64,000 bases of DNA, from positions 930,001-994,000 of the forward strand of contig NZ_CZQA01000001.1 of NCBI RefSeq assembly GCF_001458735.1, given 5' to 3'. The translations under genes were made by a program, and so were the position numbers. Positions 32,239-37,936 of the stretch are shown here, one piece after another. Positions within the stretch are counted from its first letter, which is position 1; each line of letters starts with the position of its first letter. The notes below the pieces were generated by a model. It did not search any database. It saw only the letters and a program-made list of their open reading frames with translations, and was not told the DNA's origin. This DNA comes from Candidatus Nitrospira nitrosa (GTDB lineage: Bacteria; Nitrospirota; Nitrospiria; Nitrospirales; Nitrospiraceae).

Positions 32239-32510
32239 GCTCATCACATTCGGCTCTAGTCAGGTAGAGACAAAATTTATCTGCCGTAACCCCATCGTGC
32301 TTTGGTGTTCCTCGTTCAATTCCGGTAGGATTCACCTGCTGTATTCGGATTCATAACTAAATATAAGCGACGAGGCTCCATTGCATCTTGGGGAAGGAGT
32401 TTCGACACTGTTGCTTGTTGTGGTCCGAAGTTCTTGCCGAGTGTGCGGACGACAATGGCGGGGTGCGAGACACCGTTGTGTTGTCCTGACCTACCGGGAG
32501 GTTGCCCCTC

Positions 32511-34811
32511 ATGGCAGCTGGTCTTTTTCTAGGAATGCTGCTTCTGCTGAGTCTCTCTCTCTGGCGTGTCCTTCGACTTCAGTGTGAGAACCTCCTGAAG
32601 GCCCAGGTCATTGAGGCGACGAAGTGTGGTGTCCTAGTGACCGATGCCACGCTCCCACATCATCCGATTCGCCAGGTGAATGGCGCCTTTCTCGCCCTGA
32701 CCGGCTACGCAGAGCATGAAGTCCTGGGTCAAACCAGTATGATTCTGAGTGGCCCCGATACTGATCGTGCATCCATGGAAAAGCTCGGGTTGGCCCTTCA
32801 GGATGGGTGGGCTTGTCGGGTCTCTGTTCGCCATTATCGAAAGGACGGCACATCGTTTTGGAATGAGGTGATGCTTTCTCCGATTAAAGACCGGGTTGGA
32901 CGACCGACCACCGTCATTTGGATCATGCGCGATATCTCACATGTTCGAGCGTTAGAAGCCGACCGTAGTGGGAGACCGTCGCCTACGTTGCTGTGCGAGT
33001 CCGTCTCAGAAGGAATGTTGGTGACGACGGACGAAGAGGTTGTGTACGTGAACATGGCAGGGTTGAGGATCCTCGGAGCGAGTTCGGAAGGTCAAGTGAT
33101 CGGCCATGGATTCTTGGACTTGGTTCATCGGGATTTCCAAGAGACGGTTCGGGAACACCTTGTCCGAACATCATCGCCTGAATCAGAGTGTCACTGGGAG
33201 ACCAGAGTCCTACATCGAGATGGACGTACCGTTGCGGTCGAGATGTCGGCAACGCCAATTGTGTGGGAGGGACAGGAATCGCTTCTGATCTGTTTCTCAG
33301 ACCGGGTACATGCGGGTCGAAGGGGAGACGACGTCTCCCAGGGCCTCCATGATCTTCGCCGTTCAGAGTCCATTACAGATATGAACAATTGGGCCTGGGA
33401 CGTCGCGCACGGTACGGAGCTGTGGTCTGCCGAACAGTACCGGATCTTGGGATACGAGCCTGGGTCAGTGCCGCCAACCTATGACACGTTCAAGAAAGCG
33501 CTTCACCCTGAGGATCGTGATCGCGTTCTCGCTTTGTTCGAAGAGACGTTTACCTCCGACCGCCCATACGATATCGACTGTCGGATCATTCAACCCTCCG
33601 GTGTGGTACGGTTTGTCCGGTGCCGGGGCGTTCTGATGCGTGGGCTCCCAGATCAGCCGATCCGGATGTCGGGCACCATCGATGACATTACCGACTACAA
33701 ACTCATGGCGACGTTGGCGGAGGAACGAGTTCTTCAGCTCAAGGTTGTGTTGGATGCCTCGACCACGGGGATGGTTCTAGTCAGCCGGGAAGGCACGATC
33801 TCTCTTGCCAACGGGAAGATTGAACAGATGTTCGGGTATGTGTACGGGGAACTGGTCGGCCGTCCTGTTGACTCTCTATTCCAGACTGCTGATCGTGCAC
33901 AGTATGCTCGTGAATCCCGAGAGGTCTTGTCAGCTTCGAGGGCGTGTCTTTCAAGAACCGGTGTGGAACTTTCTACTTTGAGAAAAGATGGTTCGGGATT
34001 CCGCTCTGAGATCGGTTTGTACCCGATTGCTCTCTCTTCAGGGCCGTCGCTCCTGGTCACTATTGTGGACATCACGGCTCCTCGTCAAGCTGATCGAACG
34101 TTTCGGGATGATCAGATGCGTTTGGATCTTGCCGTGCAGGCCGGGCAGGTTGGGATCTTTGAATATGATTACCAAGGGGGTACTGTCTGGTGGTCTCCGA
34201 TCCTACGGGCCATCCATGGCATTGGGATGGAGGAACCGGCTTCCCTGGAGAGGTATCTGCAGCTGGTCCATCCTTCAGATCGAGAGATGACGAACGTGAT
34301 GGCCCGATCTGTCAACACTCCCCATGAGGATCGGATCTTTGAAGTGACCTATCGAATTATTCGTCCGGATGGAGCCACTCGCACGATCAGTCTCTGTTAC
34401 CAGACCTGGTTTGATCGAGAACATGCACCAGCTCGACCACGTCAGACGGTCGGAATGCTTGTCGATATCACGGATCGGAAGGCTTTTCTGACTCGCACGC
34501 CCCCTCTCTCCACGATGGAATCACCTCGGACTATCCCTCGTAGTGTCTTTCATGAGTTCAACAACAGTCTTACCGCTGTACTTGGTTTCAGCGAGCTGGC
34601 CCTCTCGCTGATTCCTACCGACAGCAAGGCCCATCGTCATCTTCAGCAAGTCATTGCAGCCGGTAGAAACGCTCGGGAGCTGGCTCAAACCATTCGCCGC
34701 GCGTCAGATCACGCGGCTTCCTCTCCGGAATCCATTCTGCCCCCACAGCCCGGGTCGGATTCATCGGCGTCACAGACTGAGGTGCCGGATGTTGTCGGTC
34801 CTCATCGTTGA
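32511..34811 (+). CDS. Membrane-anchored multi-PAS protein with truncated kinase core
   Basis: The product is about 766 residues from ATG 32511 (GGGAGG nine bases upstream). One N-terminal membrane helix (LFLGMLLLLSLSLWRVL) is followed by about five PAS units. Near residue 680 comes FHEFNNSLTAVLGFSELALS, which matches the HisKA dimerisation helix, but the gene ends about 85 residues later. There is no HATPase domain, so it cannot be an active kinase alone. It overlaps the next gene, a single-domain receiver. It may have lost its ATPase domain or act as a sensor scaffold or phosphotransfer protein. Confidence 0.85.
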   Translation: MAAGLFLGMLLLLSLSLWRVLRLQCENLLKAQVIEATKCGVLVTDATLPHHPIRQVNGAFLALTGYAEHEVLGQTSMILSGPDTDRASMEKLGLALQDGWACRVSVRHYRKDGTSFWNEVMLSPIKDRVGRPTTVIWIMRDISHVRALEADRSGRPSPTLLCESVSEGMLVTTDEEVVYVNMAGLRILGASSEGQVIGHGFLDLVHRDFQETVREHLVRTSSPESECHWETRVLHRDGRTVAVEMSATPIVWEGQESLLICFSDRVHAGRRGDDVSQGLHDLRRSESITDMNNWAWDVAHGTELWSAEQYRILGYEPGSVPPTYDTFKKALHPEDRDRVLALFEETFTSDRPYDIDCRIIQPSGVVRFVRCRGVLMRGLPDQPIRMSGTIDDITDYKLMATLAEERVLQLKVVLDASTTGMVLVSREGTISLANGKIEQMFGYVYGELVGRPVDSLFQTADRAQYARESREVLSASRACLSRTGVELSTLRKDGSGFRSEIGLYPIALSSGPSLLVTIVDITAPRQADRTFRDDQMRLDLAVQAGQVGIFEYDYQGGTVWWSPILRAIHGIGMEEPASLERYLQLVHPSDREMTNVMARSVNTPHEDRIFEVTYRIIRPDGATRTISLCYQTWFDREHAPARPRQTVGMLVDITDRKAFLTRTPPLSTMESPRTIPRSVFHEFNNSLTAVLGFSELALSLIPTDSKAHRHLQQVIAAGRNARELAQTIRRASDHAASSPESILPPQPGSDSSASQTEVPDVVGPHR

Positions 34812-35160
34812 CGATCAAGACCAAATCCGTCAGCTGATCCGTGACACCTTGGAGAGGGCGGGGTACCATGTCGAAGAGGCGCGTGACGGAAAGGAGGGAC
34901 TTCAGCGTTATCGCGAAAACTCCGTCGACCTTGTCCTCATGGATATTCTTATGCCGGATCAGGACGGATTGGAGGCCATCATGGCGCTTCGGCGTGAGTT
35001 CCCAGATTCTCGGATCATTGCCATGACCGGAGGGATTGATGGAGTCGGCGTCCCTAATTTTCTGGATGTGGCAACCATGCTAGGGGCAAGGCTGACACTT
35101 CAAAAGCCATTTGAGCTTCAGACTCTCCTCGATGTGGTCGCTGCCGAGGTGGCGCGCTAA
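34789..35160 (+). CDS. Single-domain response regulator (CheY-like)
   Basis: The 124-residue protein is a lone receiver: acids D8-D9, phospho-acceptor D52 (LVLMDILMPDQDG), T79 and K105 (LQKPF) are all present. There is no output domain. ATG 34789 lies 23 bases inside the preceding PAS-protein gene in another frame, so translation is coupled. It probably takes phosphate from a kinase acting with that PAS protein and passes a signal by protein contact. Confidence 0.9.
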   Translation: MLSVLIVDDQDQIRQLIRDTLERAGYHVEEARDGKEGLQRYRENSVDLVLMDILMPDQDGLEAIMALRREFPDSRIIAMTGGIDGVGVPNFLDVATMLGARLTLQKPFELQTLLDVVAAEVAR

Positions 35161-35252: not shown

Positions 35253-35672
35253 ATGAAACTGCTGAATTGGTTTCTAGGGATCCTTGTAGCTGCCGTCGGA
35301 TTCTGGCTGATTTGGGGAACAGTTGCTCCGGTCGTTGTGCTTGGATGGACGCTTGTCGTGGGGGCTTTTCTTTGGCTGAAGGCTGAGTCGATCACCGAAA
35401 TCTGGGCGTGGGCGACGTTGTTACTCGGGCTGGAAAGCTTTGCGTGGCCGGTGGTGTTGATGATTCAACTCAGGGGCCCGTCAGAATCGCTCCCCGAGGC
35501 CGAGATGGGAACAATTCTTTCAGCGGTTGTGTTGGGTCTGTTCTCTTCCGTATTTTGGATTTCGTTTTCCTATGGCCTGTTCAAACGGGCGTGGCGAACA
35601 GATCAACCCTTGTCCGATGATGTGCCAATCAGGACATCGATAGCTCACTCGGGGAAAAGGAAAGGCGTGTAA
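35253..35672 (+). CDS. Small membrane protein of unknown function
   Basis: The 139-residue product has about four hydrophobic segments (LNWFLGILVAAVGFWLIWG, VVVLGWTLVVGAFLWL, WATLLLGLESFAWPVVLMI, TILSAVVLGLFSSVFWISF) and a basic C-terminus. No family is recognisable. It converges on the priA-like gene with a gap of two bases. The start ATG 35253 lacks a strong ribosome site. Confidence 0.65.
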   Translation: MKLLNWFLGILVAAVGFWLIWGTVAPVVVLGWTLVVGAFLWLKAESITEIWAWATLLLGLESFAWPVVLMIQLRGPSESLPEAEMGTILSAVVLGLFSSVFWISFSYGLFKRAWRTDQPLSDDVPIRTSIAHSGKRKGV

Positions 35673-35674
35673 CG

Positions 35675-37936
35675 TTATCCACTCTCTACCGGGTCCATAT
35701 CGACAACGAATTTGATCTGCCTCTGTCGGTATTGTCTTTCCATGCTCTCAACCGAATCCCGGAGCCGATGTGCGAGGAGGTCGGGATCAGCTCCCTTCAC
35801 CAGGAGCCGGCGGTGATGCTGCCCTCGAAGCCGTTTTCCCAGCGTCGGGACCGGTCCTAGCACGACAAGATGTTCTTCGACAGAGGTCTGTCGTTGAAGG
35901 TTGGCACCCCAGCGGGTAGCGGCCTCTTCGACGAGGACCGTATCGTGCCCAGCGACGGTAAGATCGGCGATGTGGCACACCGGTGGATAATTGAGAAGTC
36001 GGCGTGCGATGAGTTCCTCATTGTAGAACTGATGAGGATTCCAAGATAGGAGAGCTTGTACGGCGTGGTGGGAAGGGAGGCGAGTCTGCAAGATGACTTG
36101 CCCTCCAGCGGATGCCGGGTACGCCACGCTTGCCGCATCAACAAGGAGGTGGTACGTCCGCTCCGCAGCTCGAAAATCCGAGACATGTAATCCGGAATCG
36201 GCTTGAAGAATTCCCACCACATGGTGTTGTGGAAGGGGCTCTTGAGTGAAGAGTGCTTGCGTCCCTATCAGAATATCGCATGATCCGGATCTCGCACGTT
36301 CCCACAGTGAGCGGGCGGTGGATGGGCGGTGGAGTGTGTCACTGTCGAGGCGCACAATCGTGGCATGAGGAAACAAATGATGAGCTTCAGCCTCGACACG
36401 TTCAGTGCCTTCACCGACGGGACTCACCGGGGTGGCATGGCATAGGGGACATGCATCAGGCAACTGTTCCGCAACTCCGCAGTACCGACAGGTAAGGCTT
36501 CCGGCTTCTCGGTAGTAGGGGAGTGCGACGGTGCAGGAGGGACAGCGCGGTACCCAGCCGCAGTCTCGACAGATCAGCGTTCTGGCATATCCTCTCCTAT
36601 TAAGGAAGAGCAAGATCCTTCTTTTACACTTGAGGGCATCGCGCATCGCGGAGCGCAGGTTGTGGCTCAGGAGAGTTCCTCTCGACTCCTTGGTGAGATC
36701 AACCAGCTCAATCTTTGGCTGCAGGGCTATGTCTTTCTGAACCCGATGAACTTCCGCTTCGGTATCGAAATTCGATTCCAAAGATAGGTGTTCCGATGCA
36801 AGGACCACCACTGCATGATCCTCCTTCGCCCGTAGACTGGCCACGTCCCTGGCATGATATCGAGGCTCTTTAGGTTCTTTGAGGGCTGAGTCCTCTTCTC
36901 CTTCAACCCAGATGAGTCCGACGGAATCGAGCTGTGCAAAGATAACTGAACGGGTTCCCACAAGGACTGATGGAGTCGGGCCTTGACGATGATCCAATCG
37001 TTGAGGCGAGTGGGGCAGCTGGGCAAAGTCAATCTGAAGTCCGGTGAGTGATGCGAGCACTTGTGTCAACCAGCGTGCTTTTGCCGTCTCACCGCATACC
37101 ACAATTATCGATCTGTTGTGTGAACGCACTTGGCGAATGGCCTCTGCAAGTCTTCCTATCCGTTGTTGCCATGGAGCCTGGAGAACGATTTTCTTCATGT
37201 GGTCCGCCTGTAGGCATTGGTGGAGATGAGCACGCCAGGCGGGGTCTATCCCGTAGGGTTGACTCGTATCGACTACAGCGTGAGGCAGGGTTTGTTGTTG
37301 CTCTGGCTCAGTGAGGGGGATCCGCTGTCGCTTGCGAGTCTGGATATGCCCTGCGTTCGACAGTATAGGATTGATCCACGAGCGCTCAATGAGGGAATCG
37401 ACCGCTCGCAAGGCATGGCCATGTTGGGTTGGCTGGAGTGTGGAAGACAAGATCCCAGAGGCTCGGTGAGCGATTCGCTGTAGCGTTGGTCGAAGGGGTT
37501 CTGGGCAGGTACCTGTTTCCAGTGCTGTGCGGCCTAGCTGAGTGGCGATATAGCGCGTGGGGGAGATGAGTGATGGAGGGCTGAGTAATCGAAGGCATTG
37601 GCCCCAGGGGGCCACATAGTATTGTGCGATTTTGTGAGAGAGTTCGAGGAGGGCGGGAGAAATCGTCGTATTGTGCCGGTCTTCGACCAGCGAAAGAATC
37701 GTCTTTAGGGACGTAGACGTCATCTCGGGTGCGAGATGGGAGCTGATGGAAATCACGACTCCCTCTAGGACGGATTGGCCGAATGGCACCTTGACGAGGC
37801 TGCCGATTTGAATACGTTGAGCGATGGACAATGGAACGAGATAGGTGAATGCCTTCGTGATGTGCCGCGGAACGAGGACATCCGCAAACCGAGCCTCTGG
37901 TTGCGGCTGCGAGGCCGCAGTGCCCTGGAGAGCCAT
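35675..37936 (-). CDS. PriA-like primosomal protein lacking helicase motifs
   Basis: The 753-residue protein keeps the PriA layout: an N-terminal DNA 3'-end binding domain (FADVLVPRHITKAFTYLVP), the RRGYARTLICRDCGW segment and all eight zinc-binding cysteines (456, 459, 465, 468, 483, 486, 496, 499), and the PriA C-terminal domain. The helicase motifs are lost. The P-loop position reads LQAPWQQRIGRL (about 251-262), the DEEH position reads VEGEED (344-349), the GSATP position reads ASEHL, and the last motif lacks the GRAGR arginines. It should recognise stalled forks but not unwind DNA. Similar helicase-less PriA proteins are known in Actinobacteria. Confidence 0.88.
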   Translation of the reverse strand: MALQGTAASQPQPEARFADVLVPRHITKAFTYLVPLSIAQRIQIGSLVKVPFGQSVLEGVVISISSHLAPEMTSTSLKTILSLVEDRHNTTISPALLELSHKIAQYYVAPWGQCLRLLSPPSLISPTRYIATQLGRTALETGTCPEPLRPTLQRIAHRASGILSSTLQPTQHGHALRAVDSLIERSWINPILSNAGHIQTRKRQRIPLTEPEQQQTLPHAVVDTSQPYGIDPAWRAHLHQCLQADHMKKIVLQAPWQQRIGRLAEAIRQVRSHNRSIIVVCGETAKARWLTQVLASLTGLQIDFAQLPHSPQRLDHRQGPTPSVLVGTRSVIFAQLDSVGLIWVEGEEDSALKEPKEPRYHARDVASLRAKEDHAVVVLASEHLSLESNFDTEAEVHRVQKDIALQPKIELVDLTKESRGTLLSHNLRSAMRDALKCKRRILLFLNRRGYARTLICRDCGWVPRCPSCTVALPYYREAGSLTCRYCGVAEQLPDACPLCHATPVSPVGEGTERVEAEAHHLFPHATIVRLDSDTLHRPSTARSLWERARSGSCDILIGTQALFTQEPLPQHHVVGILQADSGLHVSDFRAAERTYHLLVDAASVAYPASAGGQVILQTRLPSHHAVQALLSWNPHQFYNEELIARRLLNYPPVCHIADLTVAGHDTVLVEEAATRWGANLQRQTSVEEHLVVLGPVPTLGKRLRGQHHRRLLVKGADPDLLAHRLRDSVESMERQYRQRQIKFVVDMDPVESG

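Follow-up and report, generated by a model that had tools for sequence, protein, structure and literature searches.

A PriA homologue without helicase motifs throughout an order of Nitrospirota, a probable pseudohelicase of replication restart

The window analysed here, a 64,000-nucleotide stretch of the Candidatus Nitrospira nitrosa genome (contig NZ_CZQA01000001.1, positions 930,001 to 994,000), carries a gene for a PriA homologue (Table 1). The open reading frame (ORF) scored 343 bits with the NCBIfam priA model TIGR00595 (cut-off 230) and thus belongs to the PriA family. Pfam models for the PriA 3' DNA-binding domain (3'BD), the zinc ribbon of the cysteine-rich region (CRR) and PriA_C all matched above their gathering thresholds, and the same Pfam search of the ORF reported neither DEAD nor Helicase_C families. 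All eight zinc cysteines of the CRR are present and, in the conservation alignment, 100% conserved in relatives. A first-pass annotation of this DNA had described a full-length gene with no frameshift that keeps the DNA-binding domain and the eight zinc cysteines; the matched 3'BD and CRR, the conserved cysteines and a 753-aa frame that is open here and in the orthologues agree with that description. A convergent hydrophobic ORF of 139 aa, without a Pfam match, adjoins the gene. Nearby, a PAS-repeat protein ends in a HisKA fragment only, with no ATPase domain reported, and is followed and overlapped by a receiver-like ORF; the two are possibly a truncated histidine kinase pair.

Table 1. Features of the PriA-like gene and its neighbours (positions within the window; amino acids numbered on the PriA-like protein).
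Feature	Position	Strand	Remarks
priA-like gene (putative pseudohelicase)	35675..37936	-	753 aa, ATG start; sole PriA in genome
3' DNA-binding domain (3'BD), aa 19-120	37577..37882	-	Pfam PF17764, E 1e-19
Degenerate Walker A region, aa 251-263 (VLQAPWQQRIGRL)	37148..37186	-	segment one residue shorter than intact PriA
Degenerate motif II, DEEH to EGEE, aa 342-352	36881..36913	-	alignment
Degenerate motif III, GSATP to ASEHL, aa 376-386	36779..36811	-	alignment
Cysteine-rich region (CRR), C456, C459, C465, C468, C483, C486, C496, C499	36440..36571	-	Pfam PF18319
Degenerate motif V, GTQMxxKGxDF to GTQALFTQEPL, aa 557-572	36221..36268	-	alignment
Retained, hyper-conserved DxGLHxxDFRAAER element, aa 579-595	36152..36202	-	conservation alignment
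Degenerate motif VI/arginine motif, QVAGRAGR to DAASVAYP, aa 597-612	36101..36148	-	alignment
PriA C-terminal domain, aa 652-749	35690..35983	-	Pfam PF18074, E 4e-12
Hydrophobic ORF	35253..35672	+	139 aa
PAS-repeat protein	32502..34811	+	HisKA fragment at C-terminus
Receiver-like ORF	34654..35160	+	overlaps PAS-repeat ORF

The catalytic motifs were read from alignments with E. coli/Klebsiella PriA and with intact Nitrospirota PriA. The window PriA retains none of the five motifs (Walker A, DEEH, GSATP, motif V and motif VI) that mark an active SF2 PriA helicase, and at the Walker A position GVTGSGKT is replaced by QAPWQQRIG. Both alignments therefore bear out the earlier claim that the P-loop, the DEEH box, GSATP and the arginine motif are gone, and add motif V to the list of those destroyed. 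Chance or sequencing error is excluded because the same loss is found in same-genus orthologues (95% and 88% identity) and in all sampled orthologues of the order; likewise, an assembly error or frameshift was ruled out by orthologues at 78-95% identity with the same motifs and open frames.

The AlphaFold2 model of the window PriA (mean pLDDT 86, pTM 0.85) was computed from a 40-row alignment in which 29 rows come from other phyla, nearly all of these intact PriA, so that the canonical fold is favoured in the model. On this basis the protein is predicted to adopt a complete PriA fold with two RecA-like lobes. The best five PDB matches to the model are all PriA (VIA-align Z 28-35), and the next match, Mfd, reaches Z 17.4, the maximum for other helicases. 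At the P-loop site the model places a strand (248-253), two residues and then a helix (256-272), a geometry consistent with the loss of the phosphate-binding loop.

We compared conservation in 69 rows of the order (families f1-f4, window included) with that in intact PriA; the two groups differ in breadth and the values, in bits per column, are thus descriptive. Information falls from 4.13 in intact PriA to 2.23 in the order for motif I, from 3.75 to 2.80 for motif V and from 3.30 to 2.60 for motif VI, and it rises from 3.33 to 3.69 for the DxGLHxxDFRAAER element and from 2.66 to 2.81 for the CRR; at motif IV and the PRYHAR stretch it is unchanged between intact PriA and the order. As read from the alignment, the pattern is one of a lost motor with retained DNA- and partner-facing parts. 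Pairwise Nei-Gojobori comparison with six same-genus orthologues gave a dN/dS of 0.16-0.26 over the full length and of 0.10-0.18 within lobe 2 plus the CRR; selection is thus purifying, and the first-pass annotation was right to hold the gene to be under selection. Within the family, the sequences that replaced the lost motifs show a fair degree of conservation of their own (LHAPWEHR, WVEGEEDPALKEP), and some acidic residues remain near motif II, as might be expected of a cryptic motor in which nucleotide is still bound or hydrolysed through a rebuilt, non-canonical site. We consider this very unlikely, given that the Walker A lysine, the motif II Asp, GSATP and the motif VI arginines are all gone, that the P-loop segment is shortened and its motif I conservation lowered as given above, and that in Deinococcus radiodurans, where the Walker A lysine is changed to arginine, activity is already abolished (PMC4504706).

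The genome (4.42 Mb, 15 contigs, 99.99% complete) was searched for further restart proteins, the first-pass annotation having proposed a check for a second priA, priB, priC or dnaT. No second PriA was found in it with either the protein or TIGR00595, and other weak TIGR00595 matches were rejected as Mfd, RecG and UvrB. PriC and DnaT likewise gave no match in this genome, with the E. coli positive control detected. PriB is an SSB-fold protein that is hard to separate from SSB by sequence. DciA is encoded some 8 kb away from a 450-aa ORF with a DnaA-like match, taken as DnaA, and was found in 17 of the 20 genomes searched. Strong PF01695 (IstB/DnaC) matches also occur in the genome; judged by length and score they resemble IS21-type IstB, and the weak ones lie in ORFs of other sizes, so neither was accepted as a DnaC/DnaI-type loader. 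In addition, RecG and two UvrD-family ORFs (680 and 1119 aa) are present. A PriA relative that has taken on a new function and dropped out of replication restart would fit a genome in which the E. coli-type partners PriC and DnaT are absent, but it is an unlikely reading where the genome has no other PriA, where the whole domain set, the zinc sites and the DNA-facing elements are conserved, and where the gene is near-universal in the order, a PriA-like gene being found in 36 of the 39 genomes searched.

Walker A and motif VI are missing in every orthologue sampled from the order, and within the genus and family of the window all five motifs are lost in every one. The ten named Nitrospira-type loci, including Nitrospira moscoviensis (L153) and Nitrospirales bacterium NPIRA06 (L187), all lack every motif. 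Beyond the window's genus and family, a handful of rows of the order retain isolated motif remnants. In family f4, for example, L027-L029 keep DEEH though Walker A is gone, so motifs decay in different orders; L027 has a sub-threshold Pfam DEAD match besides. Elsewhere in the same class, PriA is intact in families f5-f8, f10 and f11, and both PriA sampled from family f9 are degenerate. Of the 70 loci drawn from other phyla, 64 fit each of the four patterns; the remaining six fail one or more of the strict patterns but in no case the full set. This distribution indicates that the motif loss is ancient and predates the radiation of the order; it reaches across the order and recurs elsewhere in the phylum, and so is no peculiarity of the genome studied here.

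With TIGR00595 no PriA was recovered from several assemblies, namely G137, G007 and G017 of the same genus and G026, G200, G260, G239 and G265, which returned only weak matches of the Mfd/RecG/UvrB kind. Of these, G137 has a completeness rating of 99% for 2.0 Mb. Either priA has been lost outright, in which case the protein may be dispensable in some Nitrospira-type bacteria, or it is hidden by gaps between contigs. The few PriA-less assemblies of the same genus are what a gene decaying towards a pseudogene, after another pathway had taken over restart, might leave behind. This is scarcely credible for a gene whose frame is open in some 70 orthologues sampled across the order, with a dN/dS of about 0.2, strongly conserved domains and a motif loss older than the order's radiation.

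Outside the class, 13 families (f16, f22, f24, f26-f32, f34, f36 and f39; 24 rows) also lack the motifs, and beside them f33, f35, f37 and f40 are intact. When the motif columns were left out, the PriA tree called for two changes, which its starred branches make unavoidable. Taken by itself, PriA did not reject a single origin (AU p 0.116); rpoB did, with a log-likelihood 399 lower (p 9e-35). The segment between Walker A and motif Ia measures 31 residues in most intact PriA (30 of 37 rows); it is one residue shorter, at 30, in the window's clade (63 of 69 rows) and four shorter, at 27, in the second clade (17 of 24 rows). As the shortening differs between the clades, decay took different routes. 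A single loss in the phylum was thus ruled out by the rpoB tree and the starred branches of the PriA tree, and is disfavoured by the differing segments; by these phylogenetic comparisons the loss arose at least twice in the phylum. In family f38 (L100, L102), motif VI is broken in both members and Walker A in L100 only, which looks like a third loss, half-decayed or in progress; L100 is a short ORF of 526 aa that may be damaged.

Orthology to PriA, loss of the catalytic motifs and purifying selection, three features expected of a pseudohelicase of the D. radiodurans type, come together in the window PriA. We conclude that it is very probably a PriA pseudohelicase, maintained to recognise forks and to serve as a scaffold on which DnaB is reloaded, a function assigned from sequence and by analogy. 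Of the readings considered, fork restart without PriA unwinding, as the first-pass annotation had proposed, fits best, and D. radiodurans provides a biochemical precedent for it. Nitrospira-type PriA would neither hydrolyse ATP nor unwind DNA. It would bind branched forks through the 3'BD, CRR, HD2 and CTD surfaces, hold the lagging strand and bring in DnaB, much like D. radiodurans PriA. DciA is the likely loader acting with PriA on DnaB, because the genome searches yielded neither PriC nor DnaT, nor a loader of the DnaC/DnaI type. Where a fork requires a single-stranded landing site on the lagging strand, it could be opened by RecG or a UvrD-type helicase; alternatively, restart might be limited to forks that are already gapped and need no opening.

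The motorless PriA is found in a whole order of nitrite oxidisers and their relatives and in a second large clade, with intact sister lineages between. An ancient loss in the order, occurring at least twice in the phylum, suggests that the indispensable job of PriA is fork marking and not unwinding. More broadly, the evidence is evenly poised on whether the PriA helicase has been shed repeatedly (at least twice and probably three times in this phylum, in Deinococcus-Thermus and possibly in Actinobacteria), with selection in these lineages preserving the marking of forks for a DciA-type loader and with unwinding passed to another helicase or dispensed with. These proteins amount to natural separation-of-function alleles, and comparison of sister lineages can ask what the ATPase is for and what replaces it.

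Our literature search, which covered few subscription journals, found no paper naming Nitrospira PriA or reporting motif loss there. The NCBIfam PRK14873 models represent actinobacterial PriA. The window PriA scored 408 bits with general PriA models and at most 182 bits with PRK14873, hence no actinobacterial derivation is apparent; these scores and the tree placement beside intact PriA of its own class also disfavour horizontal import of an actinobacterial-type protein. Actinobacterial PriA, described as a smaller, very divergent orthologue (PMC1193525), is likewise divergent, but the PRK14873 scores set the two apart. The first-pass annotation had invoked the same trend in Actinobacteria; for that phylum our literature search found a description of divergence only, and the documented precedent is Deinococcus-Thermus, which a 2015 survey of 100 PriAs from 18 phyla singled out as the only motifless group (PMC4504706).

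Canonical E. coli/Klebsiella PriA (PDB 8fak, 6dgd, 4nl4) shares with the window PriA the domain order, fold, eight-cysteine CRR, 3'BD and CTD. It possesses the ATPase motifs, whereas the window PriA has none and resides in a genome without detected PriC or DnaT. E. coli PriA recognises the fork, and on single-stranded lagging-strand DNA its CRR swings, forms a pore and recruits PriB; the in vitro DnaB-loading assay of that cryo-EM study was run with K230A PriA (PMC10175261). E. coli survives with an ATPase-dead priA (PMC4504706); joint action of DciA and PriA was raised, as a suggestion only, for Caulobacter (PMC9825169). The closest counterpart is D. radiodurans PriA, which has no ATPase or helicase activity and yet binds ssDNA, forks and DnaB (Lopper 2015, PMC4504706). 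Like the window PriA it lacks functional helicase motifs and keeps the fork-binding architecture, and priB and dnaT homologues are missing there too (PMC4504706). Nevertheless, Deinococcus-Thermus PriA keeps a recognisable Walker A (K to R), whereas the window PriA has lost all five motifs and one residue of that segment; furthermore, D. radiodurans belongs to a different phylum and its biochemistry is in hand, while the window PriA is known from its sequence and a model. Thus the Deinococcus-type PriA pseudohelicase is a kind already known, and what is new here is that it extends over an order, recurs inside a single phylum and has lost its motifs more completely, and that intact sister lineages exist for comparison.
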